From contig NC_057918.1 in the NCBI RefSeq assembly GCF_018873765.1, forward strand, positions 62,746,871 to 62,810,870: DNA of 64,000 nt, in the 5' to 3' direction. The notes below the pieces were generated by a model. That model was not told the DNA's origin and searched no databases. It saw only the letters and a list, made by a program, of their open reading frames with translations. How positions within the stretch are numbered: position 1 is the stretch's first letter; each line of letters starts with the position of its first letter. A program made the position numbers and the translations under genes. Below, piece after piece: positions 5,591-41,000 of this stretch. The DNA is from Telopea speciosissima (lineage: Eukaryota; Streptophyta; Magnoliopsida; Proteales; Proteaceae).

Positions 5591-5598
5591 CTATAGGG

Positions 5599-6341: not shown

Positions 6342-6383
<42 letters not shown>

Positions 6384-17433: not shown

Positions 17434-17650
17434 GTAGAAATTAGAGAAGTTAATAGTAGAAGCCCACCAATCGTGTTGGAGCTGGAGGAGTTCTGTTTAG
17501 TCTCTTTTCACCTCAAACAATTAACAAGTGTTCTTGTCGGCTCAATGACAAGAGTTTGGTGAAAGACTTTTTGTCTTGGATGTTTATAAAGAAAAAAAGA
17601 CTTTTTGTCTTGGACAGGCTCTCTGTGGTATAGTTTAAATCTATTATATG

Positions 17651-17786
17651 GGAGAATGTTTTTTGTGCTAGGGGCGTAGGCTGTGCCCAGATACATGAGG
17701 TGGGCAAAATGATCACCCTGTCCCCTGAATGGCAGGCCCATGTGTTTGGGCACAGGCTGCGTTGTGGCACAAAGAACATCAGCCCT
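17651..17786. mobile_element. CACATG-type foldback MITE, copy A
   Basis: The ends are inverted: left GAATGTTTTTTGTGC, right GCACAAAGAACATC. Inside are paired GCTGTGCCCAGATACATG and CATGTGTTTGGGCACAGGC. The same design recurs at 17838-17996 and 30906-31034, so this is a family of small palindromic elements. Confidence 0.6.
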
Positions 17787-17837
17787 ATTATATTTATCTT
17801 TCTATGAAAAAAAAAATATTTCTGCCATATAAAATAA

Positions 17838-17996
17838 GGGATAAAGTTCTCTCCACATGTGGCGCAGGGTGCGCCCCAGACACATGGGGGTGGTTGATAT
17901 GACCAGTACCCCCCCTAATGCCCAAAATCCCACCCTGTCCGCCCCATGTGTCTAGCGCAACTGTGCCCAGATGCGCTCTGAGACAAAGAATGTGCA
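17838..17996. mobile_element. CACATG-type foldback MITE, copy B
   Basis: It has paired CCCCAGACACATGGGGG and CCCCATGTGTCTAG cores and ends AAAGTTCTCTCC... / ...GACAAAGAATGTGC. It is the most diverged of the three copies. Its right half is included in the tandem duplication at 17952-18217. Confidence 0.5.
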
Positions 17997-18217
17997 CCCA
18001 CAAAATAAATAGAAGTGTTTGGTATGATTTATGATTCTTATTTCTCATTAAAATAAATCAAGATAAGCATAAATTCATAAACAACTAGCGCAACTGTGCC
18101 CAGATGCGCTCTGAGACAAAGAATGTGCACCCACAAAATAAATAGAAGTGTTTGGTATGATTTATGATTCTTATTTCTCATTAAAATAAATCAATATAAG
18201 CATAAATTCATATACAA
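17952..18217. repeat. 133-bp tandem duplication, two copies
   Basis: The block beginning CTAGCGCAACTGTGCCCAGA at 17952 recurs at 18085 almost unchanged (one visible difference is AATCAAGATA versus AATCAATATA). It takes in the right arm of MITE copy B and its flank, so it arose after that insertion. Confidence 0.9.
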
Positions 18218-18481
18218 CTCGAGAGTTGTTTATGATATATCACCATAAACTGTTAATGTTGTTTATGCCGGTGCCATTAATGAACATGTGTAAAATTCTT
18301 ACGTAAGTGAAGTAAATTGGTAAAATTATCGAAAATTAGATCAAAGCCTCATTTGCCATCCCTCTCTCCCTCCAACTCTCACCCCAATCCACCCCTTTCT
18401 AACATATGTCATATTATTATAATATATATATATATATTATAAAAGGAAGGCTTGTTATGTATATATATACTAGTAAACGTG

Positions 18482-18499
18482 CACGTGCAAATGCACGTG
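18482..18499 (-). other. Helitron 3'-subterminal hairpin
   Basis: CACGTGCA at 18482-18489 pairs perfectly with TGCACGTG at 18492-18499, with a two-base loop. It lies 8 nt inside the terminal CTAG (18470-18473) as read on the minus strand. Such hairpins act as the rolling-circle termination signal in Helitrons. Confidence 0.75.
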
Positions 18500-19339
18500 T
18501 GGTCTTATGTTGGAGAGAGAGAGAGGAATCGATGACTATTGATTGTTTAAATCAAAATTGCTAAAAGCAAGGGTAGAAAAGCAAGTACCATTTGTGTGAG
18601 GATCTGGGGATAGCCAAACCTAGTCTCCTATTGGTTGACAAGACTGATTGTCAAAACCGGTCCATGCCAGAATTGAATGAAGAATATGGTGTGGGATCCT
18701 GGAAGCAATAGTTTACAAGAAATTCAAATATTCAAATTATCAAAAACCACAGTTACTGGAAGACCTGAGTACAAAGCACAATATAAAGATTACAAGTTTT
18801 AGCCATAACCAAAAGAATTAGGAATTAAATGACATGGATCATCAGCCCTTGTTCTCTGTGTTGGGTGCATAGCACAAGAAGCATCTGGAAGTGTAGTAAG
18901 AATAATGAATTAAGACTTGGCGAATAGAATCAATAAAAAATGATTTTGTCTTTGGAGGGAATGAAGTAATTAGATTCAAGCATTTGATGCCACCCTATAA
19001 ACAGATTCTGAAGGACCTTAGAGTTCCTTAGATTGAACTCCAACCAAGTACAAGCCTCACAACCAAGGAGGAAGAGTAAAAGACCCTATTGGCTTGCTAG
19101 AATAAAAAACATCAAAAAATTGCAATTTTTCATTGTGTTTATGATGTTTTCATGAATCAGCCATGATAATCCCATCTCTTCCAAGTTCCACTCCATACCA
19201 AACTCTTGACATCCATTTGGGGAGATCAAGCACTCGAAAAGGCCGCATTACCTCATGAAAGATGCCACTGGTAAAAAGATAATCTTTTGTCTATATTTAG
19301 AGGGAAAAATAAATCTGTAAAGAAGAAAATTTTACATAC

Positions 19340-19398
19340 CTGATATGCTTTGAGTGATTGATAAATAACCTCTTTCTTCTTGTTAACGCTCTTGTACT
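19340..19398 (-). pseudogene. Exon-like fragment captured by the Helitron (gene unknown)
   Basis: On the minus strand a 59-nt open stretch lies between a CTTGCAG acceptor and a CAG|GTATGT donor; it encodes a lysine-rich peptide containing EYKSVNKKKEVIYQSLKAYQ. A second partial copy of its first half lies about 90 bp away (about 19450-19480). A further open stretch at about 19165-19275 (containing FRVLDLPKWMSRVWYGVELG) could be the next exon. I do not recognise the parent gene. Confidence 0.35.
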
Positions 19399-20347
19399 CT
19401 GCAAGACATCAATAATTTCCAAAAATTGTTTTGGTCTTTTGGAGATGGCTACTCTTAGCCTCTTTCTTCTTGTTAACGCACTTGTACACTGTTCGCATTA
19501 AAACTTCTCTAGGTGGATGTCAATATGGTTGTTTGATCTATGCCAAAGCTGTGGGGTAGAAAGGGGGAAGTAGAGACAAAACAGAACAAAAGAACGGAAT
19601 TGTTCATCCAAAAAGGCAATAAAAGAAAGGGGGAAGTAAAGACAACGACAGAAACAGAACAAAAGTAATAACAGTAAACTAAGAAAGAAAAAAAACAAGA
19701 TATAGGGATAAACCTCATCACAACCATCTTTTGCATCTTTGATCACATAATTTCATATTGTTTCTATTTCAAACTTCTTATTGTCCACATTTTCAAAGGA
19801 TGCCACATAAAAATCAGAAAAAAAAAAAAAAAAAAACAAAGAAGCTCTATGGGCTCAACTCTTGGAAGCAGTACATAATATCATATGAATTCAAGGGTTG
19901 CTTATTATAAATTGCAACATGGCTTTTGCTGGACTCAATTAAGACTTAGGGGGTGAAGTAATACATAAAAAAAATACTGCACATAAGTGGATTTGGAGAC
20001 AGAAAGTAGATTCATCATAGCAGCCAGTACAAAGTAAAAAATCAACATTTGAGGCTTAGATTTGATTTTGTGACCATTATGCTTAAAGTTTTTGTTTTTC
20101 ACTCTAGGACAGGCTTATGATCCAAATATCAAAAAATTAAGATTATCAAAAGATACCAGAGAGCAGAAATTCTAGCAAATAATGCAAGCCAGGCTTATGC
20201 CATAGAATGAAATAAAAAGGATTCGATAAAAGTAAAAAAAAAAAAATGGCATTACACACCTTTCACTAAGTCACTATTACAGTTCCAAGTTACAATTGAA
20301 TAATCAGGTAAGAGAAGAGTCCAAATCCAGGCACCAAGACAGAATTC

Positions 20348-21728
20348 TAGTGTTTGGTACTCTCAGCAGAATTCTCCTCCTTTCCTTTCCCAGACAACCA
20401 CAACTTTCTTTAGAAAGGCTTCTATTGGCTGGTAAGAATTCTCCACGGCATTGGAAATTCTCTGACATCGCTCACGACCATGCTTTGGTACTGCCGCAAT
20501 ACATTTCTTTAATATATTTTTCCGGTGCTCTTCATTTCCATGCTGAAGCTTAAATTTGTAGAACAAAGCCCAGAAATCCCCAATATCCAACACAAGAATT
20601 ACTGCACCATTCAGCCAGTTTCTTGCTTTCTCCACCTTCTTGTCATGCCAAAACAATTTACCACAACAACAATGATAGGGAAATCATGATCCGCCTGCTT
20701 GAGTGCATCAATACTTTTTTGTTTTGTGTTTGGGACATGGGGCCATCTCAATTGATGCTGCCCACAGGATACCACTGGTCCACTGGTAAGGCATTCTTGC
20801 AATCCCATTGCCATCAGATTATCAGCTTCCTTATTATTTTCATGACTTAATTCAGCTTGAATTGCAGTAAGTCAAACTTCAAGATTTTGGGGATTCTTCT
20901 TCCTGGCCATAGTAAGAATCGCTCGTGCTTTGCTTAGCATATTAATCTCTCCTTAATATTAGCAAGGGAAAGCCAAAGGAGAATGCAACTGGGACAATGC
21001 CTTAGAGACTCATAAGCTTTCTTGGCTTGCTCCAAGCGACCAAGACGGTTGTCCAGCTGTTCAAGCATCATCCACAATTTGAAGAATGAAGGGAAAGGTT
21101 TCAGCTCCTCTTCAAGCAATCTCCTCTCCTCTGCGGTGTTCCCCAATTCTGTCTCAATAATGGTTGATTTCATACACACCCTTTCTGTGCCTCCTCTTTC
21201 TCAAGATTTAGCAAGAAGCATTGTTGCTCGCTCAAGCTCATGGTTCTCAAACTCCAAATTGAAAGCCACAAGCCAAATTTCCTCAGAGTTGGGAATGGCA
21301 GCATAAGCTTCCTGGATAATAGCTCAAGCAGCAGGAACACCTCCAGCAAGCCACTTCTCTTTGGCACCCATTGACCATAGGACTTGGCATGTGGTCTGTA
21401 TGTTACCACTTTCTAGAGGAGAGCATCAAGAGATTCTCTGGTCCCATGACTCTTCTCAAGCTGTGCTGCCTTGAGACAGATACTCTTCTTGGTTAGGTTA
21501 ATGGTATGAGCATGAGCATAGATAGCTCAGGCAGTCTCAAAGGAACCCCTCTTCTTATACTCCTTGGTAACAGCAACCTATGTCCTCTTTCGATCTTCTT
21601 CCTCAACACTAATCCCAATGGGGGTTACAAATTATAGCATGGGATGTTGCCACAGATCCAGCTGGTTCTGCAGCTTCAACCTCAGTCATCCAGGCTCCTT
21701 TATCGACCACCAATCCTTCCCTTTGTAA
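20348..21728 (-). pseudogene. PRP6/STA1-like pre-mRNA splicing factor fragment (C-terminal TPR/HAT region)
   Basis: Broken frames on the minus strand follow the order of the C-terminal half of PRP6 (STABILIZED1 in plants), the tri-snRNP bridging protein built of HAT/TPR repeats. Recognisable blocks in order are GLVVDKGAW...EVEAAEPAGSVAT, VTYRPHA, IIETELGNTAEERRLLEEEL then FPSFFKLWMMLEQL...RLGRLEQAKKAYESL, CPSCILLWLSLANI, the segment around DALKQADHD, and FWHDKKVEKARNWLNGAV with GDFWALFYKFKLQHGNEEH. The C-terminus reads SAESTKH and a stop at 20348. At least five frame changes separate the blocks, so it encodes no functional protein. No intron is visible within it. It lies in the Helitron on the element's own strand and is best explained as a captured fragment; the intact parent should be elsewhere. 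Confidence 0.85.
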
Positions 21729-22019
21729 AAACATGATACCCCTCTTGCCTATTACAAACATGATACCCCTCTTGTCTAAATCTCTTGGAGAGACAATGCA
21801 AAGAGATTTCATATATTTGAGATGCCCATGTACACACAAGCAACAAAAAGTCTTCTTCTCTACTGTTAAAAAACAAATCTGCTAAGAAAGTGAGCAAACT
21901 AACCAGAAAAAAAAAATGATAAAACAGAATGCCAATTTAATAGTTTATTTTGCCTTGTTTCGTAAACTGGCATTATTAATGATGTCAGTTTACGAAGCAA
22001 TGGAAAATAAACAAAGAGT

Positions 22020-22343
22020 AAGTACAGTCACTTCTAGTCTGTCGTCCTCTAAATAATAATCGGCTACCTCTCTAAGATGCAATCAGTCAGATTTCAGTTC
22101 AATGTCCAAGTAGCTTACTATATACATCTTCAGAGACTTCAAATAACCCATCAACCTTTGATTCCCATATATACCTAAAATTTAGAAAGAGGAGTTGAAA
22201 CAATCTCTTTCACAAGACAAGGGAGGCGACCTTAAGAAACTAAATGCCCCAAAATAGTCTGCAATAAGATATACGGAGTAAAACCCAACTCCAAACTGTC
22301 CAATGAGATTGAGGTCAACGCTTGTCTGCATTTTCCCTACAAA
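22020..22343 (-). pseudogene. ER-type HSP90 (GRP94/HSP90.7-like) gene fragment
   Basis: Two exon remnants of the HSP90 ATPase domain. The first (22343-22254) reads [20 protein letters not shown] then VYLIADY, the highly conserved GxxGxG ATP-lid segment; the KMQTSGDLNLIGQ form is typical of the ER paralogue. The second begins at 22174 after an AAATTTTAG acceptor and reads YIWESKVDGLFEVSEDV, then breaks into stops and a frameshift near an EVADYYLE stretch that matches the next part of the family. Between them only intron-like sequence lies where the family has further residues, so part is missing. It sits about 300 bp upstream (in minus-strand sense) of the PRP6 fragment in the same Helitron, so two unrelated genes have been brought together. 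Confidence 0.8.
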
Positions 22344-22978
22344 GCTTGCATATAAAGCAAAACTATATTCAATAAAAAACTCATTCACATAGGAAAAAAA
22401 AAAAAGGTAAAGCAAAAGCTAAATTCCATTTCTATCCGAATGTTCTTGCCTATTGGTATCTTAAACAATTAAGAATAACACTTAAAGTTCCAAACTTTGC
22501 TATGGTTCCAAAGTTAATGATCAGATCTTATTGTGTCATTCCCTATACCTAAGTCACGAATAGAAAGCAATATCTTTTCATTGTCGAATTTAATCTACAT
22601 CATATAATTTTTAAAAAATTGCAGCGAACATCCAACAATCATTAAGTTCATAAGACATGCTTATGGTTAATAGAAGATGTAGCACCATAAATGTGAAATG
22701 TCAGAACTTGATTCTTAATAGTTGATTTCAAGAATAAAGGTTAAGGCTTGAATTATAGATGTAAACACCATCAGTAACAGATACCCAAGTTCAATGATGG
22801 AGGGTGGCGATTGCTAACATGACATGGATCTTTATCACCTCCAGTTTGCTGACCGGCCCAGTTTCCCAGTTCCTCTAACAAAGGGGGGCTGAATTGATGA
22901 CATGCCAACATAGACCAATTCAAACTCATAGAGTGACAATGAACTACTATCCTAATTAAGAGAAAGGAAAAAACAGAA

Positions 22979-23180
22979 TACCCTAAAGAGAGAATCATCT
23001 CATTTCTAAAGTCTGAAACAATTATTCTCCAATCATATAGAATATAGCAACTGAGGTACATAGGGAAAAATTAAATAGGATACCCTGAAGAGAGAATCAT
23101 CTCATTTTTAAAGTCTGAAACAATTATTCTCCAATCATATAGAATATAGCCACTGAGGTACCATTCCAAGCAAATACCAA
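22979..23180. repeat. 101-bp tandem duplication, two copies
   Basis: The block beginning ATACCCTAAAGAGAGAATCA (22979) recurs at 23080 with a few substitutions. It lies inside the Helitron, in sequence I cannot assign to a gene. Confidence 0.85.
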
Positions 23181-24485
23181 GAGATCATTGACCCAGATGA
23201 TACAAATTTCTGGAACATCTGCAGGCCGGCCATTAATCAATATGAATACATGAAATAGTCAATCTCAAACAGGGGGAAAGGGAGGAACAGAAGGAATAAA
23301 TCGAAAAGTAAACAAACGAGCCAAATATCATCTTCTTTGATTTGATGAGATCTGTTAAAAATTCAAAGCAGAAATCTAGAACCATCATAACGGGAGAGGC
23401 AATGGACAAGGTGGTTGCTCCACAAATACACAGAAATGCATGGGCCAAGGACATAAATCTGGCCATATTTTATCAATCTGCATGGGCTAAGAGCTTTGGT
23501 GCACATGCTATAAAGTTCTTGAAGTCCACAACATGGCAATGGGAGAACCCTTCAAACTACAGGGTGCTCATAAGCATATGCTATTTACACAAAACAAGCT
23601 ACAAATTCCTTCAATCCCATGTCAAGACACAAGATTAAATCCTCTAAACCAGAGTGTTCTTGCAAGCATAAATGAATGTTCACATGCATTGCACAAATGC
23701 AAACAGAGGGCGGTTGTAAACATAAACGAATGTGCACATGTGTTGCACACATGCACACATGCACACACTGCACATACATACATACCTCTAGGATCTAGGG
23801 CCAATAAACCTTTTTCCAAATTCCTGGTGCAAATTTTACACCAAACAGTTTACAACTCCCAACTGTCCTATAAGAGAATAGATGATTCGATCCATCTAGA
23901 AAACTACGTTCAGTTAAATCATAATAACATCATGATAACCCTCCACCGATCTCAGTGATAAAATATCAACCTCAAATGAGCAAGGAAAGTGGCTTAAAGT
24001 ATACTCCGCATGAAAGTGCCACAGGAGATAGCAGAATGGAAATTGTGATCACAAATTATTCTGAAACTTTGGGCTCCCTTTTAGCCATCTCCTTTGCCCA
24101 ATGGTAGCTGAAGATGTACTGACCATGCACTGCCATTTGGAAGTGGCAGGTCGTGACATGTAAACATTCACTATCATAATGAACATCACATTTTCAGAAT
24201 GGATTAACAACTCTATTAGCGTAAGGCAGTTTTGTCTTTGAAAGATATAAAAAAAGAAGGGGAAAGTTTTCATACACGGTTGTGTAAGCTGTGTATGTAT
24301 GTGAGAGGGTCTCTCACAAAGAGTTGGAAAAGTCATAAATCCCCACTAAATGTATAAGAACAAACCCAATAACTAAAGATGTTCCAGCGGTGGCAACACA
24401 AGCTGCAGTGCTGACATTTCCTGAACCAACCATATTCTTAATCTCAGCATGTTCAATATGAGAACTAAAACTGTGCAGCAGAAAT

Positions 24486-24800
24486 TCAAGGTAAGAGAAC
24501 TTTTACCTGTTCGAAGGGACGAACATTTTTCCTGCTATAGAGAGGAGAGGCCGCAGCAATCCACAGCAGAAGGGAGAAGACACGCTGCAATCCAATACCC
24601 TTAGATGGAGAGTGGAGACTTGTTAGACTCGTCGCTGCAAGCCTGCAACCGTTGCTGGAAGGGATAAAATCCACAGGTTTCTTCGGTTACAAACATTTAC
24701 GAAAGGGATTTAGGGTTCGAGCATGGTTTGGGAGAAGAGGAGGAATCGATATTTGGGGCATTGGTCGATGGAGAGATTTAGTGAGAAACAGATGATGCTT
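24486..24800 (-). pseudogene. Captured leader exon, copy 1 (gene unknown)
   Basis: On the minus strand a frame from 24674 encodes 56 residues (start MDFIPSSNGCRLAATSL, with a hydrophobic VFSLLLWIAAASPLYS segment) and then meets a GAACAG|GTAAAA donor near 24507. It looks like the first exon of a gene for a targeted protein (transit or signal peptide). A second copy lies at 30088-30350, interrupted by the copia insertion. I do not recognise the gene. Confidence 0.45.
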
Positions 24801-25137
24801 CCAAATCCTTCCTCTCTGCCGGTACAAATTGGATTAAAAGAGAGCTTACGCGTGCTAGCTATGAGTAAATTCTGAACTTAGTTTGATAATGAGTTTTGTG
24901 TCTGTTTTTTTGAAGTAAAACCTCTCAACAAACACTAAATCTCACAAAGAAGAGTAAATGTGAGAGAGAGAAGTGTGAAGAAGAGAAGGTGAGGAGCAGG
25001 TTTTGGCCCCGTCGTTTTTAACTCTCGTTTTCTGTCAATAAAAGCTCAGGACAATTTGAAGAACATAACTGCATCATGTCGAAAGAGGGAAGGAGGGAGA
25101 GATACTTACAGAGAGGAGGGGCCGCTGTATCAACCGA

Positions 25138-25451
25138 TCTTGAGTATCCCTCGGTTGAGTATCCCTCTCCCGATGGATACTCAATATCGGATTCTCCCAT
25201 TTTGGAATGCACAACTCTCTCAATCTCTCAAAATTCACATGTGATATCCATTGCCTATTCAGCAGATTGCAATCCCATTAAATCACATGTGATATAGAAT
25301 AGATATGGAACTTAATCTTATTGCAATCCTTTTGTAATCCTTAGACAACTCTCTAGCAACCAACTAGGGATCTTCTATGATCTTCCATGTAATTGTATAT
25401 ATCTCCATATTGGAGAATCATTTTGAATAATGGAAAAATACTATTCTAACA
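25138..25451 (+). repeat. 5' LTR of copia element 1
   Basis: Starts TATCAACCGATCTTGAG and ends TATTCTAACA. It differs from the 3' LTR by substitutions and small indels, including an extra GGTTGAGTATCCCTC-like block near 25150. The primer-binding site follows at 25452. Confidence 0.9.
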
Positions 25452-25548
25452 TGGTATCATAGAGCCAACGTTTTTTTTTTTCTCTCCTCCTTGCTCCAAC
25501 GAGCTTGGTGATCTTCCGTCTTTCAATCCCTAGTTGGTGCCTTCCACA

Positions 25549-28500
25549 ATGGCCACTGGTTCGTCTCTCTCCTCTCACACAGCCGAATCCATTAACACCT
25601 CTTCCCTGCCCACCATGGCTGCTGGTTCGTCCTCCATTTCCTTCCCCTCGGCCCACCACCTTCTATCCATAAAGCTAACTCCAACGAATTTTCTGGTTTG
25701 GAGAAAACAGATTGTACCATTTTTAAAAGGCCAAGGGCTCTTTGGATACCTTGATGGATCACACCCATGTCCAACCGATCCCATTGAAGCCGCTGCTTGG
25801 ATCAAACAGGACTCACAATTGGTCAGTCTACTTGTGGCATCTCTCTCTGAATCACTTGTTCCCCTTCTCTTGGACAAAGAAACCAGCCATGAATGCTGGA
25901 AAACCTTACATGAGGCCTACGACTCTGCCTCCACCACCAGACTGATGTCATTACATCTTGAGTTGCAAAGTCTTAAACAAAAACTAGATGAAGGTGTTAC
26001 ATCTCTCCTTCAACGTGCGAAGTCTATTTCGGATGAACTCGCTGCGTTAGGCAATGCAGTGAACAAAACTGAATTCAGTATGCACGTCCTTCGTGCCCTC
26101 AGTGATGATCTCCAAGATGTGGTCTCTGGCATTCTGAATCGGCCCGAACCTCCATCTTATCTAGAACTCCATGGCCTTCTTCTAAGCCATGAAAGCATGC
26201 GGGCCTTTCGGAAACTACTGCTCATTGATGCTGCACCTGCATCTACCCCTCCAGCTACCAATACCATTCAACGGTGCCCCCCTCCTCAACCAAATCCGGC
26301 TCTACCTCATCAGGCCTTGGTTCCTATAGGGGTCGTGGGGGGCGTGGTAGATCTGGTAGGGGTCGCGGTGGTCGTGGTCCTCCTCAGTATGGCTGTTTCT
26401 TCTGCACCATTTGCCATCGCACTAATCACCAAGCCCAAAACTGCTATTACCGATCTTCAAACCCTTACCCCTATTATCCATCCAATCCACCCAACCATGG
26501 TCCATCTCCGTATACTCCTTGAGCCCACTATGCCCAACCGCCACCTTTTCCATATCATTCTCCTCCACCATCATCAGCCCTAACTTGGTACCCAGACACT
26601 GGTGCTACCCATCATGTCACCCTTGACCTTCAATCCATGACATCCTTTGACAGGTACAATGGTCGGGACAATTTGCATGTAGGTAATGGTAAGGGTCTCC
26701 AAATATCTCATGTTGGTAGTGGTAAAATCACTTCTCCCACTCTCTCTTTTCAATTATCTGATATTCTCCATGTCCCCTCCATCACTAAACCTCTTCTTTC
26801 TGTTCAACGCTTTGTACAAGATAATGGAGTCTTTTTTTAATTTCATCCTTCCTATTTTTGTGTCAAGGATCAGGTCACCAAGGCGACGCTTCTTTCCGGT
26901 CTGAGTAAGGGTGGTCTATATACCCTTCCCTCTTCCTCCACATCCTCCCCAACTGCCAGTATTGCTGAAAGGACTTGCTTGGATGGATGGCATTCTCGTC
27001 TCGGTCACCCTCATGAGCGCATCCTTCGTACCATGATTTGCCAAAATAATCTACCTTGTAGTTCTTCTCGTCTTTGGTCTGTGTGCCTTGTATGTCAAAC
27101 GGGCAAGGCTAGTCGTCTCACATTGCATGAAACTAGTTCCCGTAGTGAATTTCCCCTTGAATTAATTTTTAGTGATGTATGGGGTCCATCCCCTGAACTT
27201 TCTTGTGATGGCCATCGTTATTTTATCATTTTTGTTGATGACTTTTCCAAATTTATCTGATTTTATCCTTTAAAGGCCAAATCTGAAGTTTTTGGGTTTT
27301 TCCATCAATTTAAATTATTGGTTGAACGGCAATTTTCTCGCTCCCTAAAAGCTATCCAGACTGATTGGGGGGGGGGGGGGGCGAGTACCGTTCTCTTCCC
27401 ACATTTTTTGCAAATCTTGGCATCTCCCACCGGGTCTCTTGTCCTCACACCCATGAGCAACAAGGCTCGGTGGAGCGCCGCCATCGTCATATTGTTGAAA
27501 CGGGTTTGTCCCTCCTTGCCCATGCTTCAGTCCCTAAGCAATACTGGCACTTTGCATTTGAAACCACGATGTATCTTATTAACCGCATGCCCTCCAAGGT
27601 TACAAATAATTTCTCTCCCTTCCAATTGGTCCATAATAAGACTCCCGACTATAATTTTCTATGTGTTTTTGGGTGCTTGTGCTACCCTCTCCTTCGTCCA
27701 TACAATCGTCATAAGATGGACTATAGGACCATACCCTGTGTCTTCCTTGGTTTCAGCTCCACCCATCATGGTTATCGCTGTCTTGATCGACTCCATAATT
27801 GTTTCTACATAGCTCGTCACGTTTGATTTGATGAATCAAATTATCCCTTTGCCTCTCCCTCCATCCTTGGTCCACCTCCATACCCCCCATCTACTAGCTC
27901 TCCTTGGAGCGTGGTTCCAATCGGCCTTTCTCCCACCCAACCTGTAATGCCTACACCACCACTACATGTGATACCAAGTCCCTCTCCATTACCATTGTCC
28001 TTGGACTCCCCACCGGCGGTCTTACCACCCTCCCCAATTCCAATGGCTCAAATTACACCTTCCCCCCCTTCTTCCCCTCCTCCATGAACCAGACCAATAT
28101 TTGAGTTGTATGCCACCCCACCCGCACCGCCTCCTCCACCCACTCGGCTTCACCCCATATAACTCCGATCTAGAACCCAAAACCCACAAGCCCTCACCTC
28201 TTCACCCACCACCTTTAATCCCGAACCTACATGTTTTACCCAAGCAAACAAAATCCCTGAATGGAGAACGGCCATGGCTGATGAATTCAATGCACTGGTG
28301 CGCAATGGCACATGGACCCTGGTTCCTCGTTGCCCCTCAATGAACCTTGTGGGCTGCAAGTGGGTATATTGCATCAAGCACAAGGCTGATGGTACCCTAG
28401 AGCGTTACAAAGCCCGCTTGGTAGCCAAGGGGTTCCACCAACAGCATGGAATTGACTACACCGATACATTTAGCCCGGTGGTAAAGCCTACCACTATCTG

Positions 28501-29759
28501 CACTATTTTGTCACTGGCCGTTGCCCATAAATGGTCGGTTCGCCAGCTAGACGTGCACAATGCTTTCCTTCATGGTCACCTCACTGAAGAAGTGTACATG
28601 ACTCAGCCTCCAGGTTTCATTGATCTAACCATCCTGACCATGTATGCCACCTCCATCGGTCCTTATATGGCCTCAAGCAGGCACCCCGGGCTTGGTTCCC
28701 TCGACTCACCCAGTTTCTGGTTTCTTATGGGTTCACTGCTTCCAAAACCGACCCATCACTCTTATTTACAATCATGGTGGTACTTTGACCTATGTTCTCA
28801 TCTATGTAGATGACATTCTGATCACTGGCAACACACTAGCCCAAATAACCCGCCTTCTTTCATCCCTTGCTAAGGAATTCTCAATAAAAGATTTGGGCCC
28901 TTTACATTTCTTTTTGGGGATTGAGGCTCTTTCTCATCCCCAAGGGTTGCTTCTCAGCCAGTCCAAATACATTGGAGATCTTCTTACTCGCTCTGGGATG
29001 GCTGACTGTAAAGGCGTCCTTACTCCTATGGCCACCACATCTAAACCATCCGATGCAGGGGGTGCTCCGTTCTCTGATGTGACTTTATACCGATCTATTA
29101 TTGGGGCACTGCAATATGTCACTCTTACCAGGCCAGATGTATCATTTTCTGTAAATCGGGTCTGCCAATTTATGCATGCCCCTACTGAAGAAATTTGGGG
29201 AATGGTGAAGCGTATACTATACTATCTCAAAGAAACTCGGGACTATGGACTTCTCCTTCAAAGAACACTGGACTTCCACCTTCAAGCCTTTTCTGATGTT
29301 GATTGGGCCAGTGATGGGGCCGATCGTAAGTCTATAGGTGGTTTTGCAATATTTTTGGGCCCAAATCTGGTCTCTTGGGGCTCAAAGAAACAAAAAATAG
29401 TGGCCCGTTCTTCCACCAAATTGGAGTACAAGGAATTAGCTGACGCTGCAGCTGAATTAATTTGGTTGGAGTCATTCTTTAATGAAATTGGCTTTCCATT
29501 AAAGTCTCCACCGATATTATGGTGTGACAACATTGGGGCCACTTATCTTTCAGCCAACCTTGTTTTTGACGCCAGCACAAAACACGTCGCGATCGACTTT
29601 CATTTTGTGCGTGATCGTGTGGCCAAGAAGCAGTTGACTGTTCAATTTATCTCTACCAGTGATCAGATTACCGACATCATGACTAAGGCATTATCAGGTG
29701 CACGCTACCAATTCTTAAGGGACAAGTTGAAGATCCGCTATCATCGGCCTTCCACTTGA
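25549..29759 (+). pseudogene. Copia element 1 gag-pol remnant
   Basis: Broken Ty1/copia polyprotein. Gag starts near 25549 and changes frame near 26270. A zinc knuckle (CTICHRTNHQAQNC) lies at about 26400-26441 after a Gly/Arg-rich stretch. The protease site is WYPDTGATHH near 26588. The HHCC integrase part begins WHSRLGHPHERI near 26990. RT blocks include [30 protein letters not shown] and YVDDILITG. RNase H has DWASDGADRK and [15 protein letters not shown]. It ends at 29759. Damage: TGA at 26521, TAA at 26838, TGA replacing Trp at 27258-27260, a G run at 27366-27380 that shifts the integrase frame, TGA replacing Arg at 27823, and shifts around 28640-28800. It cannot make a working polyprotein. 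Confidence 0.9.
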
Positions 29760-29766
29760 GGGGGTG

Positions 29767-30082
29767 TATCAACCGATCTTGATTATCCCTCTCCCTATGG
29801 ATACTCAAGATCGGATTCTCCCATTTTTGGAATGCACAACTCTCTCAATCTCTCAAAATCCACATGTGATATCCATTGCCTATTCAGTAGGTTGCAATCC
29901 CATTAAATCACATGTGATATAGAATAGATATGGAACTTAATCTTATTGCAATCCTTAATCCTTAGACAACTCTCTAGCAACCAACTAAGGATCTTCTATG
30001 ATCTTTTATGATCTTCCATGTAATTGTATATATCTCCATATTGGAGAATCATTTTGAATAATGGAAAATTACTGTTCTAACA
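29767..30082 (+). repeat. 3' LTR of copia element 1
   Basis: Starts TATCAACCGATCTTGAT directly after CTTGAGGGGGTG and ends CTGTTCTAACA. The target-duplication copy CGTTG follows. It includes a short internal duplication of GATCTTYYATGATCTT relative to the 5' LTR. Confidence 0.9.
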
Positions 30083-30087
30083 CGTTG

Positions 30088-30350
30088 TAATCCATTGGAG
30101 AGTCGGAGAGTTATTTTGTTGCACTCCACTGAGAAGGGAGAAGACACTCTGCAATCCAATACCCTTAGAAGGAGAGTAGAAACTCGCCAGACTCGTCGCT
30201 GCAAGCCTGTATCCGTTGCCGGAAGGGATAAAATCCACAGGTTTCTTCGATTACAAACATTTACAAAAGGGACTTAGGGTTCGAGCTTGGTTTGGGAGAA
30301 GAGGAGGAATCGAGACTTGGGGCATTGATCGATGGAGAGAATGTAATCGA
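30088..30350 (-). pseudogene. Captured leader exon, copy 2, split by the copia element
   Basis: This matches 24560-24800 over about 230 bp in the same orientation (shared blocks GAAGGGAGAAGACAC, CTGCAATCCAATACCCTTAG, AAATCCACAGGTTTCTTCG). The homology continues across the copia insertion into 25112-25137, where the minus strand reads CCTCCTCTCT|GTAAGTATC, a strong donor. Frameshifts relative to copy 1 are visible. The Helitron therefore carries the exon twice. Confidence 0.55.
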
Positions 30351-30585
30351 AAGACCGAGGAAGAGAGAGGGGGTGAGAGGGTCGACGGTGTGAAGTGGGG
30401 AAAATACTATTTGATATAAAATAAAAATGAAAATAAATAAAAGGGTACCGATAAATTATGAAAATTCCTATTAAAAGACAAATAGATTAGTAAAAAAAAT
30501 ATGTATTTAAATAAAGAATGAAGGATAAAATAGTCAAGTGAAAAAATCGCCATAAAGCATTAGTTCGTGCACTTATATAATAGTA

Positions 30586-30588
<3 letters not shown>

Positions 30589-30651
<63 letters not shown>
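30589..30651. repeat. (TA)n microsatellite at the Helitron insertion site
   Basis: About 60 bp of TA dinucleotides abut the Helitron 5' end. The other flank (18421-18469) is also TATATA-rich, which suits the AT-dinucleotide target of Helitrons. Confidence 0.9.
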
Positions 30652-30653
<2 letters not shown>

Positions 30654-30905
30654 CATGATTATTGTTTATAATTGATTATTCATAAATAAGGCATAAATAT
30701 AAGGGGAATAGAACACTACCTGTTCGTGAGCCTTGCGTGTCTCCCATGCCTAGACACAGAAAGTGCCCTGGGCGCCTGGAATTTTCGCCTTTACATGGTG
30801 GGAAGGCGGTCATTTCAAGGCGGGTAAGGCGGTTTGAGTGTTTAGGCGTGGCAGCCAAGGTAGGGGCACAATCGTGTAACGTTCTCTCTCCCTAAATATA
30901 AATAG

Positions 30906-31034
30906 GGCTGATATTCTCTGTGCCGCAGCGTAGCCTGCGCCTAGACACATGAGCCTGTCATTTAGGGGGTAGGATGGTCGTTTTGCCCACCCCCATGTGT
31001 CTGGGCCTGCACCTCTAGCACAAAGAACATTTAG
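30906..31034. mobile_element. CACATG-type foldback MITE, copy C
   Basis: Ends CTGATATTCTCTGTGC / GCACAAAGAACATTTAG are inverted. The core pair is GCGCCTAGACACATG / CATGTGTCTGGGCCTGC. It belongs to the same family as the copies at 17651 and 17838. A diverged stretch at about 30716-30890 (CTAGACACAGAAAG...GTAACGTTCT) may be a fourth, decayed relative. Confidence 0.55.
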
Positions 31035-31264
31035 CTATATAAATATAAACTAGGCCCAAGAGAGCCTAAGTTTCTCTCCATCCATAGAGGACGATTCGCC
31101 CACCATCCTAGGGTTCACAAACTCCTCCTAAGACCTAAGGTTTTTGTATTTTCTAAAATACCTCCAGATACCCTTTCTCACCCTCTCCCGCCCCCCGATG
31201 AATGGGATCCCATCATCCCATTCACCGTGGGTGGAGGGAAATGGATCATTATCCTCTCTGGTTC

Positions 31265-31407: not shown

Positions 31408-31843
31408 AAAAAAATTTGGAGGGAAACTTGGTCTTTTATGTTTGATACTTTGATATCTTTTGACCTCAGATAATCAAATAATTAAACAATTAACTAGTGT
31501 TATTGTCGGCTGAATAATAAGACTCCCATAAAACTTAGGCGGCTGGATAGTAGATGACTAGTACCCAAAAAACTTACAGGTGCAATTCCAAACAAAAAAG
31601 CTAACAAGTGACTTCGTGGATACCTCAAGTTAGAAGAGATGGAGAACCACATAATCCAATTTGAATTGGTGAAGAAATAAGAGCTTCAGAGAATCTTTAC
31701 ATTGATACAAAGTTAATGACTCTTTTGTCGATGAATTCATTTCATAGGAATGCCTCTTTTCTCTAATTTTCTACTGTACCATCTCCGAAACTCCCTCTTA
31801 AAGCTTAATAAATTGGAATAGATTCACCCTCAAATTCTCACCA

Positions 31844-32318
31844 ATGGATATTTCCATTCAAATTCTCTCCTTACTACCTTCCTATCTTCATGTTGTCGAT
31901 GTCATAAACTTGATTACGTGGTGCTTTTCTTGCAGAATCTAGCAAAACCCAATCTTTCATTGTGGAATTCGATGATTCAGTTGTTCTTAAGATCCGGTTT
32001 TGTTCAAGAATGTATTGGATTGTATAATAGTATGCTCCATGAAGATATCTTTCCCGACAACAAAACATTTTCTGTAGTTCTCTGTGCGTGTACTACTATT
32101 CCTTCAGCCAGTGCTGGGGAAGGTTTTCATTACCAGATATTGACAATGGGTTTTGAATTTGATCTATTTTGACAAACTGGGTTGCTTGATTTTTATGCAA
32201 AGGTTGGAGATTTGAGCTCCGCTAAGAAACAGTATGGGGAAATGCCTAATAGAGATGTTGTGACTCATAATGTGATGATTACAGCATTGGGTAAGCATGG
32301 CTATGTAAGTGATGCGAG
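31844..32318 (+). pseudogene. PPR-DYW protein pseudogene, segment 1 (N-terminal)
   Basis: First of three pieces (31844-32318, 37135-37724, 42696-43548) of one intronless PLS-class pentatricopeptide gene, of a type that normally acts in organellar RNA editing. Recognisable PPR blocks are SLWNSMIQLFLRSGFVQECI...YNSML...PDNKTFSVVLCAC, LLDFYAKVGDLSSAKK, and RDVVTHNVMITALGKHGYVS. The Met at 31844 opens a different frame, so the start is uncertain and an N-terminal shift is likely. TGA at 32170-32172 interrupts the second repeat. The segment ends at GATGCGAG, the target copy of copia element 2. Joined to segment 2 there, the frame continues exactly (SDA|RNLFDEMP). Confidence 0.88.
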
Positions 32319-32599
32319 TATTGAGGATATGATTCCCTCTCTCGATCGGTTATACATTCCGTGTACAACCCTTCTTCTGTTTTAGGTAATAATCTATATC
32401 ACATGTGTAAAATATGATCACATGTGATATTGATTTATCTTGGAATAGAAGTCTCTCCACAATCTTGGTTAAGATGTCAATTTATTATTCCATGTAATCT
32501 TTGTAATCTTTGTTTCCTTGTTTACTTCCATCTCTTGTAGTCTGTATTTAATACTCCTCTATTGAGGAATCACAACTAAGGAATTATATTGCATTTACA
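32319..32599 (+). repeat. 5' LTR of copia element 2
   Basis: Starts TATTGAGGATATGATTCCCT and ends GCATTTACA. It carries a 13-bp stretch (around TCGGTTATACATTCCG, 32344-32358) that the 3' LTR lacks. An inverted CACATGTG motif is present, as in the LTRs of the other two copia elements. Confidence 0.9.
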
Positions 32600-32674
32600 T
32601 GGTATACAGAGCCTCTTTGCTCCAACGAGCTCCTTACTAAAATTTTTTTTCCTCCTCTCTTTCCTCAAACGACT

Positions 32675-35600
32675 ATGCCTGGGGAGGACGACCTCTCTTC
32701 CGCCACCTCTCTTGGCATCGTTTCTTCACCTAATGCACTACCCTCCTTTCATCATGCACACCACTACCTCTCCTTGAGACTGAGCTCTACCAATTTCCTC
32801 TTCTAGCAAACTCAAATTGAACCATTCTTGGATGGATAGAACCTCTTAGGTTACATCGATGGCACCTTCCCTTGTCCGACGGACTCCACTGCTGCTACTA
32901 CCTGGCATCGCCAGGACTCTCTTATTCATAGTCTTCTTATTTCCTCCATCACTGAGGAGGAGTTTCCCCTTGTTCTTGGGAAAACCACAAGCCAAGCCAT
33001 CTGGCAGTCGTTGTGTACTGCCTTCTCTTCTCCTTCAGAGAGTCGTCTCATGTCTCTCACTATGGCGATGCATGACCTCACCCAAAAGCTGGATGAATTG
33101 GTCTCTCAGTTTCTTCAACGTGCAAAGACGATCTTTGGTGAGCTCAGTGCTGTCGGGCACCCTCTGCGCCCCATTGCTTTCAACTTGCATGTTTTTCCAG
33201 GTCTCAAGCCTGATTTTTGCTCCATGGTGGACTCTCTCCTCACCCGGCCTGATGCAATTCCATATGATGATCTCCATGCTATGTTGTTGAGTCATGAATT
33301 TCTTCATGGCTCATCTTTGAAGAAGTTGACATTGGCCGACTCTCCTGCATCTGACACCTCTCCGACAGCCAACATTGTGCAGCGCTCTTCCCCCTCTTCT
33401 GCACCCGGTTCTTCAGAGCCCAATCGTGGTGGTAGAGGATTCCGTGGAAGGGGCCGCAGCGGTCGGGGACGTGGTGGTTTCCCTACTAGTCAGTCTTATG
33501 GCCGCTTCTACTATACCTACTGTGGCCGCACGAACCATTCCATTAAACGATGCTTTCTTCACCTCAAGTAGGGCTTTCAATAGGCGGCTCCATAGTACAA
33601 TCCATCCCATTAACCCTTAGCCTACTACACCTACCCGTCCTCCCCTTATGCGTCCTCACACCCGTCACCCTCTCAACCATCCCTACTCCCTACCCCTCCA
33701 CACCCGTCACCCCTACCCTGGTACCCGGACACTGGTGCTTCCCACCATGTTACCCCAGATCTATAGGCTTTATCCTAATATGATGACTACACTAGTCCAG
33801 ATCAGTTACAGGTTGGCAATGGTAAGGGCTTACCAATTTCTCATCTTGGTTCCGTAATTCTCTCTTCTCCTTCTTCTAAGTCTTTTTATTTAAATAATGT
33901 GCTTCATGTCCCTTCCATTAACAAACAATTTCTCTTAGTTCATCAATTTACTCGTGACAATCACGTATTTTTTGAATTTCATCCATCTCACTTTCTTGTG
34001 AAGGATCAGGTCACCAAGTCAACACTCTCTCCGGAGCGAGTAACAGTGGACTTTATGAACTCAATTCCTCTCCTCCATCTGCTAATGCTGCTGTCCGTAC
34101 TTCCTTGGATCTTTGGCATCATCGATTGGGGCACCCTCATGAGCGCTTACTGTGGCATATGATCACCATTAATAAATTACCTAGTTTTTCTTCCCATCTT
34201 AGTAATTTATATTCTTCTTGTCAATTGGATAAATCCCGTCGTTTAACTTTGCATACAACTTTTAGTAAAAGTCTCTTCCCTTTGGATCTTATTTTTAGTG
34301 ATGTTTGGGGCCTTCACCTACCCCTACTCTTGATGGACATCGTTTTTATGTTATTTTCATTGATGATAATACAAAATTTATTTGGTACTACCCTCTTGTG
34401 CGTAAGTCCTAGGTTTTCTTTGTTTTTACCAGTTGTAAACCTCTTGTGGAACGACAATTTGGTAGGAAAATAAAATCGGTTCAGACGGATTGGGGTGGTG
34501 AATTTCGCATCCTCCCTAACTTTTTTCAAAAAATTGGCATTATTCACCATTTATCTGCACCTCACACCATTGAATAACAAGGGTTCCCAGACATTTTTGG
34601 CACTTTGCCTTTGAAACTACTCTCTACCTAATTAACAGGATGCCCTCTTTGGTCTCTCTAGGTATCTCTCCTTTCCAATTGGTTTTTCATCAAAGCTCAG
34701 ACTATAGTTTCCTTAGGGTTTTTGGGTGCTTGTGTTTTCCATATCTTAAGACCATATAACAAACATAAAATGGATTTTCGTTCATCTCCCTGTGTTTTCT
34801 TAGGCTACAGTACGCTTCATAAGGGTTACAGGTGCCTCAATCTGCAAAGCAATTGTTTACTCATTGCTTGCCAGGTGCGTTTTGATGAAGAGCAGTTTCC
34901 TTTCTCCAAATCCATTCTTGGATCTCCACCTGTTCCTCACTCTCCTTCTCATGCTTTCGCCTCTACTCCCCTGATGTTCCTCCTCCTTCTCCCCCTATCC
35001 TTCCCATGCCCTTACCGGCCAACCCTTATGTCTCACCAGTGCCGTCCTCACCACCCTTATCTCCCCTTCTCACCTCTCCATTACCGTTGGTCTCCCCATT
35101 ACCGTCGGCCTCCCCCTCTCCCATCCCCTATGACCTGCCACCAACCCTCTCCCCTTCGCCGATCTCCCCTCCCTTACGTACCCGGCCCCTTAGTGACCTC
35201 TACCACACTTCTTCTCCTCCTACCCCACCCCAACCGACCACCACCTCTATTCACCCTATGACACTTCGCCATCACCCCAATCAACCTCATGCCCACTCTA
35301 CTGACATTATTACTGTGGAGCCTACTTGTTTTTCACAGGCCTCTAAGGTACCCGAATGGAGATCAGCGATGGCAAAGGAATTTAATGCGTTGGTTCGTAA
35401 TGGCACATGGTCCCTTGTTCCAAGGACCCCTGATATGAATTTGGTCGACTGTAAGTGGGTGTACCGTATTAAACGTAAGGCAAATGGCTCTCTTAAGCGC
35501 TACAAGGCTCGCTTGGTGGCTATGGGCTTTCACCAATAATGTGGGATTGATTACAGTGAGACATTTAGTCCTGTGGTTAAACCAACTACAATCCGTTGTG

Positions 35601-36848
35601 TGTTGTCTATTGCGGTTTCTCAGGGTTGGCTAGTTAGGCAACTGGATGTTCACAATGCCTTCCTGCATGGCTTGTTACGGGAGGAGGTATTTATGTCACA
35701 ACCCCAGGGTTTTGTTGATTCTAATCATCCTTCTCATGTCTACAGACTTCATCACTCGTTATATGGCCTTAAACAGACTCCTCGAGCATGGTTTCATCAT
35801 CTATCCACGTTCTTCACTCAACTTGACTTTATTGGTTCAAAGACAGACACCTCTTTATTTATCCGACGCACTGGCTCTCATGTCTGCTATGTACTGGTCT
35901 ATGTGGATGACATCCTCGTGACTAGTAGTGATGCTTCTGTTGTCCCTACCCTTCTGCAAAAATTATCGGGCGAGTTCTCCATTAAGGACCTTAGTCCTCT
36001 ACATTTTTTCTTAAGGATTGAAGCTAAACCTCACAGTCGTGGTCTTTTATTGACTCAGTCCCGTTACATCTCTGATCTCTTACGGCGTACCGGTATGGTT
36101 GATTGTAAACCGGTCAAGATGCCTATGTTCACAATTAAGGATTCGAACTCAGGGGATGCTCTCTATGACAACCCAACAGAATATAGGTCTGTTGTTGGGG
36201 CCTTACAATCATTACTCTCACACGCCCAGACGTGGCATTCGTTGTTAATCGAGCCTGTCAGTATATGCATGTACCCTCCATCAATCATTGGCAGCTTGTC
36301 AAGCGCATTCTACGCTACCTCAAGAGTACTCATAATCATGGTCTTCTATTGGTGCGTTCCCTCTCTCATCGCCTACAAGCCTTCACGAATGCTGATTGGG
36401 TAGGCGATGGTACTGATCGCAAATCCACAGGTGGTTTTACAATTTTCCTTGGGCCAAATCTTGTCTCCTGGACATCGCGGAAGCAACGAACAGTTGCATG
36501 TCCACAGAAGCCGAATACAAGGCTTTGGCCAATGCTTTTGCGGAATTGATCTGGTTAGAATCTCTATTTTTGGAACTCGGCTTCCCTCTTCATGGATCAC
36601 CCATGTTATGGTGCGATAATATAGGCGCCACTTATCTCTCCACCAATCCGGTGTTTCATGCTCGCACAAAACACGTTGAGGTTGACTTCCACTTTGTTCG
36701 TGATCATGTGGCCAAGAAATAGCTTCAAGTTCAATTCATCTCCACTCATGATCAATTGGCCGACATGTTTACCAAGGTTCTCTCCACCGCTCGTTTTGAA
36801 TTCTTGCGAGACAAGTTGAAGATTCGATTGCTCGATTCTCCACCTTGA
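32675..36848 (+). pseudogene. Copia element 2 gag-pol remnant
   Basis: Gag starts MPGEDDLSS at 32675 and is hit by TAG at about 32804 and 32837. The zinc knuckle at about 33510-33552 reads YYTYCGRTNHSIKRC, so its first cysteine is now Tyr. The protease site WYPDTGASHHVT is near 33719. Integrase starts LWHHRLGHPHER near 34108. About 60 nt is missing after HLSAPHTIE near 34570, where the catalytic region should continue. RT blocks are WVYRIKRKANGSLKRYKARL, a TAA after KGFHQ at 35537, [25 protein letters not shown] and YVDDILVTS. RNase H has [14 protein letters not shown] and [12 protein letters not shown], with a TAG at 36720 after HVAKK. The stop is at 36846-36848. Confidence 0.88.
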
Positions 36849-36853
36849 GGGGG

Positions 36854-37129
36854 TGTATTGAGGATATGATTCCCTCTCTCCATGTACAACCCTTCTTCTA
36901 TTTTAGGTAATAATCTATTTCACATGTGTAAAATATGATCACATGTGTTACTGATTTATCTTAGAATAGAAGTCTCTCCACAATCTTGGTTAAGATGTCA
37001 ATTTATTATTCTATGTAATCTTTGTAATCTTTGTAATCTTTGTTTCCTTGTTTACTTCCATCTCTTGTAATCTGTATTTAATACTCCTTTATTGAGGAAT
37101 CACAACTAAGGAATAATATTGCATTTACA
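36854..37129 (+). repeat. 3' LTR of copia element 2
   Basis: Starts within TGTATTGAGG (the LTR proper is best read from TATTGAGG at 36856) and ends GCATTTACA at 37129, followed by the target copy ACGAG. An extra TTTGTAATC unit separates it from the 5' LTR. Confidence 0.88.
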
Positions 37130-37724: not shown

Positions 37725-38041
37725 TATTAGAGTGAATAATATTCCCTTAGTATATTCATGAATCCCATAGGGATATATATATAAGGAACACAATGAGATT
37801 CTAGATCTCTTAAACAAGGAAACCCAATATTGGGTGATACAAAGAGATACAAAGCTATAACCACCATAGCCGATCAATATTTGGTTGCCATAGATAGAGC
37901 AGTCCATATCACATGTAAATCACATGTGATAATTGACCAACCAATCAATATTTGGTTGCCATAGATAGAGCAGGCCATATCACATGTGATAATAGACTGA
38001 GAAAGGAAGGTGGATCATCTCTAGTGATCCTTCTCTTAATA
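37725..38041 (-). repeat. 3' LTR of copia element 3
   Basis: 317 bp. It is longer than its partner because CAATATTTGGTTGCCATAGA with its flank is duplicated (37877 and 37946). Each unit includes a CACATGTGAT motif. Confidence 0.9.
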
Positions 38042-38048
38042 CACCCCC

Positions 38049-41000
38049 TCAAAGTGGAGAATTGGGCAACCGAATCTTCAGCTTGTCACGTAGACTCTCA
38101 AAAATGGGAGTTGGCCAGCGGTTTTGTCAGTGTGTCAGCGAGCTGATCTTGAGAAGAGATAAACTGGACTTGTAACTGCTTTTTGGTGACCCGATCATGA
38201 ACAAAATGGAAGTCGATTCAACATGCTTTGTCCTGGCATGAAATACTACGTTGGCGGACAAATATGTGGCACCCAAGTTGTCACACCAGAGAATAGGTGT
38301 GCCAGATAACGGATGACCAAGTTCAGTAAGTAGCGATTCCAGCCAAATCAACTCAGCCGAGGCTGCTAGAGCCTTGTATTCGGCCTCTGTGGAAGAACGA
38401 GCTACAGTGCGTTGCTTGTGAGAGACCCAAGAAATAAGATTTGGCCCAAGAAAGATTGTGAAACCATTGGTAGATTCTCGATCAGACCCATCACTGGCCC
38501 AGTCAGCATCAGTAAATGCCTGCAAAGAGCGGGATGGAGAACGTTCAATAAGCAAGCCAGCAAAGTTTGTGCTTTTCAAATATCGAAGAATACACTTGGC
38601 CAATTGCCAATGCTCCTCAGTTGGAGAATGCATGAACTGATATACACGATTAACCGTAAAAGAGACAATCGAACGAGTAAGTGTTACATATTGTAGGGTA
38701 CCCACGACTGACCGATACTGGGTTGGATCTGACATTAGTGCACCCCTTGAATCAGAGAATTTGGTAGTAGTAGCCATGGGAGTTTTCACCGGTTTGCAGT
38801 CAACCATTCCAGTACGCTTTAACAGATCCGAAATGTAGCAGGACTATGATAGCAGAATGCCCTTTGAATGACGAGTTACCTCAACACCCAAGAAAAAGTG
38901 CAGATCGCCAAGGTCTTTGATGGAGAATTCACTGGACAGTTGGTGCAACAGAGAAGAGATCTTGGATGAGTCATTTTCAGTCACAATAATGTCATCCACA
39001 TAAATAAGAATGTAATAGACATGGCCACCAAAATAGTGAATAAACAAAGATGTGTCCGTTTTGGATCTATGAAAACCCAATCCAATCAAAAACTCAGACA
39101 AGCGATGAAACCAAGCACGGGGTGCCTGTTTGAGGCCATATAGCGAGCGATGCAGCCTGCAAACATGATTTGGAAATGAAGGATCAGTAAAACCTTATGG
39201 TTGGGACATATACACCTCCTCGTCCAACACACCATGAAGGAATGCATTCTGAACATCTAATTGGCGGATGGGCCAGGCTTGTGAAATCGGGATGGAGAGA
39301 ACACATCAAATTGTAGTGGGCTTCACCACCGGACTGAAACTCTCACCATAATCTAACCCAAGTTGTTGGTGAAACCCTTTTGCCACAAGTCGCACTTTGT
39401 AGCGCTTAAGAGACCCATCAGCTTTCCGTTTAATCTGGTAAACCCATTTGTTTCCAATGAGATTCATAGTGCTTGTGCAAGGAACAAGAGACCATGTACC
39501 GTTTTGAATCAAAGCATTGAACTCATCTACCATTGGTGTACGCCACTCTGTAATTTTATTAGCCTGCGAAAAAGAAGTAGGTTCAGTAGCAGCTGTAGTG
39601 GTAGTATGTGCATGTGGGAACCGGGCATGGGAATGAAGCCGCATTTGGTGCAAGGACTGTGCAGGTTGTGGCGGTGGGGAGGGTTCCATGGGTGATGGTT
39701 CAGTGTAGAGGACAAGGACCGGTCTAGTGCACAAAGGTGGTGATTGGGATAAAGGTGGGGAAGGCACTAGGACCGGTGAGGTGGGGCTGATGGTGTTGCG
39801 GGTAGACAAGGCCGGGCTAATGGGTGTCTGGAAGGGAGAAGGAGGTATGGGAGATACTGGGGAGTTCGGTATAGGAAGTGGTAAGGGATCACGAGGCCGC
39901 ATCATTGGTACACTAGGAGAGAAAAATGGAGCCGATGCCCACGATTGTGATGGTGTGGGCAGTGGGGTAGGTGGAGTGGGTGTTGTAAAGTTGGAGAAAG
40001 GGAAGGTTGTCTCATCAAACCGAACATGACGGGCAATGATAAATTTATCCGATGTTAAATCAAGACAGCGGTAACCCATATGTGACGAACTGTAACCAAG
40101 GAAAACACACGCCGAGGAACGATAGTCCATTTTGTGACGATTAAACGGATGGAGATAAGGATAACATAGGCAGCCAAAGACTTTAAAAGAATGATAGTCA
40201 GGGAGTTTGTGAAAAACCAACTGAAATGGTGAAATCTCTAAAGAAACCAAAGAGGGCATCCTATGTATTAAATACACTACAGTCTCAAAAGCAAAATGCC
40301 AATATTTTTATGGCACAGACCCATGAGCAAGAAGGGATAGACCAGTCTCAACAATGTGTCGATGACGTCTTTCAACGGCACCTTGATGCTCATGGGTGTG
40401 TGGCACAGAGATGTGGTGTGAAATTCCAAGATTAGAGAAGTAAGTGGGGAGAGGGGAGGGGGGAGAGAGCGGTACTCACCACCCCAATCAAATTGCAAAG
40501 CCTTATTTTTTCTACCAAACAAATGTTCCACAAGGGCTTGAAATTGAGGAAAGATAACAAAAACATCAGACTTGCTTACCAAGGGATAAAACCAAATATA
40601 CTTGGTGTTATCATCCACAAAAATCACATAATACTAGTGTGCAAAAATAGAAGTTGTGGGCGAAGGGCCCCAAACATCACTATAGATTAAATCTAAAGGA
40701 AATAAGCTTCTACTAGGAGTTGCAGGAAGAGAAAGGTGATAGGCTTTGCCCAGTTGGCAAGCCTTACAAAGTTTACTTAAAGAAGAGTTCTGAAAAGGTA
40801 AATCATTTATTTTAAGCATAGTTTTGAGAAGATGCTCATGTGGATGCCCAAGACGATGATGCCAAATATCAATGGTACTACAGACAGCAGTGGGTGGAGT
40901 CTTGGGATTTAATTCATATAGGCCACCTCTACTCGGACTGGAAAGCAGCGTTTCCTTGGTTACCTGATCCATCACAAGAAAATGGGATGGGTGGAATTCA

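Follow-up and report, generated by a model that had tools for sequence, protein, structure and literature searches.

Maize Helitrons are described as carrying fragments of several genes, acquired step by step (Dong et al. 2011, PMC3288121), and a review cites a figure of ~2,791 for maize Helitrons that carry genes and are expressed (PMC13317346). Helraiser and Helibat are described with a hairpin near the 3' end, insertion between A and T in AT-rich sequence, and a 3' end that may be bypassed (PMC4778049). Gene-carrying plant Helitrons are already well known, and the element reported here adds another example. We analysed a 64,000-bp stretch of the Telopea speciosissima genome (the window; contig C3:62746871-62810870), in which positions 18470-30588 are a real Helitron belonging to a many-copy family of this genome. 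We consider it quite probable that this element is a non-autonomous plant Helitron that shares a cassette of captured gene pieces with other copies, is a composite of two lineages, and later received a copia retrotransposon.

We refer to the window copy as W, and to related copies on other contigs as the C1 copy (loci L029 and L009), the C2 copy (L011, the same place as L004) and the C11 copy (L033/L050). W resembles the gene-capturing non-autonomous Helitrons of maize in its conserved short termini, its several fragments and its related copies with different contents; it differs from those elements because most inspected ends here lie in (TA)n tracts and because W joins the halves of two lineages (PMC3288121). 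Like Helraiser and Helibat, it has a 5'-TC, a CTAG-3', a hairpin near the 3' end and an AT-rich target between A and T (PMC4778049). Unlike Helraiser (PMC4778049), W had no Rep/helicase (RepHel) frame recognised in its open-frame listings, no profile search having been aimed at RepHel in W or the genome, and W was taken as non-autonomous because of this. The preference described for Helraiser is for AT-rich sequence within ~20 bp (PMC4778049), whereas the target here is a microsatellite-like TA tract. A preference for TA microsatellites is shared with MuTAnT, Mutator-like elements of Medicago (PMC4486113); these belong to a different transposon order from W and move by cut-and-paste.

Sequence inspection placed the minus-strand junctions at A/TC (30589/30588) and CTAG/T (18470/18469). 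The palindrome at 18482-18499 has a 7-bp stem and a 4-nt loop and stands 8 nt ahead of CTAG; folded as DNA it reached -7.8 kcal/mol (z -3.2), a value equalled by 1 of 200 shuffles. An earlier note on this DNA had described the ends as TC and CTAG, with a hairpin 8 nt before CTAG and host A and T at the junctions, and both sequence and fold agreed. TA tracts lie on both sides of W, and a short target duplication is unreadable there. The coordinates of all features are collected in Table 1.

Table 1. Coordinates of the Helitron in the window and of its parts.
Feature	Position	Strand	Description or evidence
Helitron, non-autonomous	18470..30588	-	~7.2 kb without the nested copia; TC/CTAG ends, A/T junctions, ends common with the C2 copy
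3' terminus	18470..18505	-	7-bp hairpin at 18482-18499, 8 nt, CTAG, then host T
5' terminal region	30403..30588	-	begins TCATACTATTATATAAG; at least 44 matches to the 256-bp query
TA tract, 3' junction	18460..18469		sequence after the CTAG end
(TA)n host tract, 5' junction	30589..30650		sequence
Module A, 3' half with PRP6 and HSP90	18470..22946	-	blocks identical at 87-96% (C2 copy, L011) and 94-97% (C1 copy)
PRP6/STA1 fragment	20340..21746	-	~C-terminal half; frameshifts and stops; PDB sequence match, E 7e-41
HSP90 genomic segment	21972..22653	-	coding pieces ~22245-22346 and 22105-22176 (ATPase domain); phmmer
Module B, interior	22968..25125	-	includes leader block 24344-24830; in pieces with the C11 copy (L033/L050), 87-97%
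Ty1/copia LTR retrotransposon, nested	25126..30082	+	broken frames; long terminal repeats (LTRs), RVT_2, empty sites in L031/L035
Module B, 5' part	30083..30402	-	second leader-block copy at 30121-30340; runs on directly from the 25032-25129 match in L031 and L035

The 823-Mb genome was searched with both ends of W. A 131-bp 3'-end query gave at least 42 matches (best 40 of 104 candidates scored), and a 256-bp 5'-end query gave at least 44 (best 40 of 365 candidates scored); both counts take in the window itself, a few matches are two pieces of one place, and some stop short of the tip. We fetched 20 3'-end places at 9-10 kb and 20 5'-end places at ~3 kb. The 3'-end table held the window and 15 of the 20 long loci (n = 16). 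Five loci were left out (L009, L017, L019, L022 and L025), where the 61-base end query was unmatched to its end; L009, L019 and L025 still show CTAG/TAT, and on inspection no such end was seen at L017 or L022. The 5'-end table held 20 termini from 17 loci, with L030 being the window, L036 counted twice and L028 three times; lacking a core within 2 mismatches, L039, L041 and L043-L046 were left out.

Results showed that the 3' ends read CTAG in 13/16 cases, CTAA in 2/16 and CGTG in 1/16, and that T came next in all 16. Stem pairing held at 108 of 112 positions over the 16 ends (102 Watson-Crick and 6 G-T). Among the first eight 3' loci, of which L001 is the window, six read CTAG/T, L007 read CTAA/T and L004 read CGTG/T, with flanks that were unlike past the TA tract. 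TCAT preceded the core in 15 of the 20 5' termini. The C2 copy has both termini in common with W, at 87% identity each, and many places match one end; the C1 copy has the 3' end in common. W combines TC/CTRR-type ends, a 3' hairpin, insertion between A and T, and many copies differing inside, all features of Helitrons. The earlier note's view of a Helitron that had captured PRP6 and HSP90 was supported by the common termini, the hairpin, the A/T junctions and the further copies. The lack of any other copy with both termini, which would have told against the note, is contradicted by the C2 copy.

The PRP6 piece matched human Prp6 from mid-protein to near the C-terminus in several frames (PDB sequence search, E 7e-41). 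All six candidates of the PRP6 genome query were scored and gave six matches: the window, C2:45.88 Mb, two pieces of the C1 copy, C2:4.35 Mb and C11:2.25 Mb. The last two are contiguous over 1,434 bp each, at 86% and 85%, and are candidate parents that may be resident PRP6 genes. By eye, the stops of the PRP6 piece stand at identical places in W and in the C1 and C2 copies; therefore an already broken fragment was spread, and a protein product is unlikely. In the C1 copy the PRP6 piece holds an insertion of ~5.4 kb (L009, 303-5705) that has GGTGC on each side and looks like an LTR retrotransposon.

The ATPase-domain piece of HSP90 matched HSP90 N-domains at E 1.2e-6 (phmmer); the downstream coding piece was weak by itself in W (E 0.68) and aligned in register in the C2 copy. 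The HSP90 genome query (best 40 of 928 candidates scored) matched the C2 and C1 copies at 94-95%, and matched C4:10.85 Mb and C5:14.30 Mb at 75-77%, just upstream of multi-exon HSP90 genes that, judged by this similarity, are the likely parents. Five further fragments (C2:37.4, C4:32.0, C9:23.8 and C9:39.7 Mb at 81-82%, C8:13.0 Mb at 77%) had no HSP90 domain match nearby in a domain search of their surroundings. The earlier note had called the piece an endoplasmic reticulum (ER) type of HSP90. The HSP90 identity stood; the putative ER type was based on residues and on genomic similarity to the C4 and C5 genes, both not of the intron-poor type, and other multi-exon HSP90 genes were listed too.

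HSP90 pieces were also found in two elements chosen for their common 3' end, L018 (~5300-6430) and L025 (~3600-4600), both with a PF00183 match. By eye their residues read as cytosolic type; a later part matched a cytosolic HSP90 first (E 7.7e-5) and endoplasmin second (E 8.6e-5), values that are weak, nearly equal and favour neither type. W matches L018 and L025 at the 3' end only, and their HSP90 pieces differ from that of W. We found no 5' end for the L025 element. From these residues and alignments, separate elements of the family read as carrying fragments from two distinct HSP90 genes.

Among the matches listed, PRP6 and HSP90 were together only in W and in the C1 and C2 copies, and adjacent pieces outside Helitrons, which would have spoken against the earlier note, were not seen. 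The PRP6 and HSP90 pieces of the C2 copy were 93-95% identical to those of W, with W-C2 distances of 0.049 for PRP6 and 0.037 for HSP90; W-C1 distances ran from 0.026 to 0.058 and C1-C2 distances from 0.044 to 0.046. Within module A, W has a short insertion (22817-22897) without counterpart in C1 or C2, which is multi-copy in the genome as inverted pairs and looks like the remnant of a miniature inverted-repeat transposable element. The C1 copy holds a galacturonosyltransferase (GAUT) domain fragment (L029, 4597-4863; E 7e-20) in a stretch missing from the C2 copy. A nested transposon was considered for this fragment; internal capture is more likely, because its edges lack a clean duplication or convincing inverted ends.

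The similarity of W to the C1 and C2 copies ends at 22946-22948; past this boundary C1 and C2 have further sequence in common with each other, in blocks that reach almost to their 5' ends. The C11 element (L033) has the family 5' region, and its similarity to W ends at W 22968-23058. The 1.35 kb beyond the C11 boundary matched neither the W element (its HSP90/PRP6 part included) nor C1 or C2 at the DNA level, and neither the PRP6 query nor the HSP90 query, among the matches listed for the latter, matched near it. The junction between the two modules of W (22947-22967) is ~20 bp long with little homology. The simplest reading of these alignments would be that W is a C11-type 5' half joined to a C2-type 3' half near 22947-22967. 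A joint gathering of leader, HSP90 and PRP6, as read from the earlier note, was not supported: W has its PRP6 and HSP90 cassette in common with C1 and C2, and its leader block comes from another lineage. Block 24556-24776 recurs at 30121-30340 (91%), and several copies have internal duplications within the leader block. The leader region has two open stretches without a Pfam match.

The nested copia element, which the earlier note had missed, is ~5 kb long and makes up ~41% of the 18470-30588 span, and it ruled out a single contiguous 12-kb capture. Its LTRs lie at 25126-25451 and 29765-30082 (K 0.030), and its reverse transcriptase matched RVT_2 at E 1e-16. Both of its flanks are contiguous in L031 and L035, which are natural sites without copia; it is younger than the module in which it sits because of this. 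As for its target duplication, the flanks overlap by 7 bases against L031/L035 (CGCTGTA/CGTTGTA in W), partly LTR bases, and the 5-bp sequences flanking the two LTRs do not match.

The sequence TATATATA stood directly after 13/16 3' ends, compared with 1.3% of A/T sites in fetched sequence; the other flanks were at L012, L027 and L028. A (TA)4 lay within 40 bp upstream of 18/20 5' ends, against a background of 0.8%. Both backgrounds were computed on the same fetched loci, with overlap between some of them. At L039 a 3' end passes through a TA tract into a second family 5' region, and at L043 a 3' end lies within ~30 bases of a family 5' region with no TA tract and a degraded 5' tip. In L018 (~6430-6500), where another family 5' region likewise lies close to the 3' end, this neighbour starts with TCATA/TCATACTA units leading into HSP90 coding sequence. 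Separately, L013 and L047 have flanks that are alike by eye, with TA beside elements in opposite orientation. We tentatively suggest, at somewhat under even chances, that this Helitron lineage prefers (TA)n microsatellites and that its copies pile up end to end, promoting fusions that yield composites such as W and the recurrent uptake of gene pieces, among them those of two HSP90 genes. Alternatively, the TA tracts could have grown by slippage after insertion. No report of a Helitron targeting TA microsatellites was found among the titles and abstract openings listed from an open-licence library; passages in papers listed there cite a helitron-like superfamily of Lepidoptera that lies in (GAAA)n. 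The TA-tract preference and the composite build may be the unusual aspects of this element.

Several explanations compete with the composite Helitron. TC and CTAG are short by themselves and might by chance surround unrelated gene fragments, but common termini in many places and a second copy with two ends leave this idea next to no probability; chance termini were ruled out by the at least 42 and at least 44 end matches and by the two-ended C2 copy. A more serious candidate, though an unlikely one, is that leader, HSP90 and PRP6 were taken up one by one within a single, simple Helitron lineage, without any fusion of elements. Stepwise capture has been described for maize Helitrons in the account cited above (PMC3288121), and the C1 copy contains the additional GAUT fragment; where W has module B, however, C1 and C2 share the other sequence described, and module B at C11 comes with its own family 5' region. 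The earlier note had inferred that a chimeric transcript from the 5' end could read leader, HSP90 and PRP6 in order; on this line, the element might be an expressed chimeric gene, with a promoter in its 5' end driving a functional spliced leader-HSP90-PRP6 transcript. The HSP90 and PRP6 pieces do lie in order on one strand, and maize Helitrons are reported to make chimeric transcripts (PMC4528327). We regard such a gene as very improbable: the PRP6 stops are common to all three copies, and the copia element breaks up the leader region of W. A spliced chimera of this kind would be unlikely to code for protein, and any transcript is most likely non-coding or truncated.

Some observations weigh against our own interpretation. 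The fusion rests on a single composite copy, and only 1.35 kb was read past the C11 boundary; HSP90 and PRP6 could lie beyond that, hidden by an insertion. The C1 copy has a diverged 5' end, which matches W at only 72% over 182 bp; its 3' hairpin lacks one arm, and this copy stands outside the stem-pairing table. The C2 copy terminates in CGTG, not CTAG. We nevertheless favor the composite Helitron, for which the following order of events may be proposed. An ancestral element would have gained a genomic piece of HSP90 and the C-terminal half of PRP6, and would then have decayed. The decayed cassette would have been copied to at least three places, presumably by rolling-circle transposition, a mechanism suggested by the family, with enzymes supplied from elsewhere. 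W would then be a composite whose 3' half, to 22946, is the cassette and whose 5' half, from ~22968, stems from another lineage of the family; end-joining or template switching is suggested because the ~20-bp junction has little homology. The copia insertion at 25126 would have come later.

Elsewhere in the window, two more copia-type elements, oppositely oriented, lie at 32318-37129 and 37725-42690; a PPR-protein fragment (31822-32169; PPR_2, E 4e-11) stands directly before the first. A pair of 1.7-kb direct repeats (47100-48775 and 51800-53504), 92.6% identical, is LTR-like, and the open frames between them (49218-49577 and 49614-50639) had no Pfam match. An irregular tandem array of period 49 bp occupies 61606-62866. 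Near the 3' flank of the Helitron is a 133-bp tandem duplication (17952-18217; 98% identical), and inverted copies of one repeat (17616-17796 and 30893-31067; 78% identical) stand on either side of it.

These data point neither to a new gene nor to a host function of W. The ordered series seen here, in which a dead PRP6 piece is shared, modules are joined and a copia element arrives later, illustrates how Helitrons assemble and shuffle gene pieces. The family offers a test of TA-tract targeting and end-to-end stacking as a cause of such shuffling.

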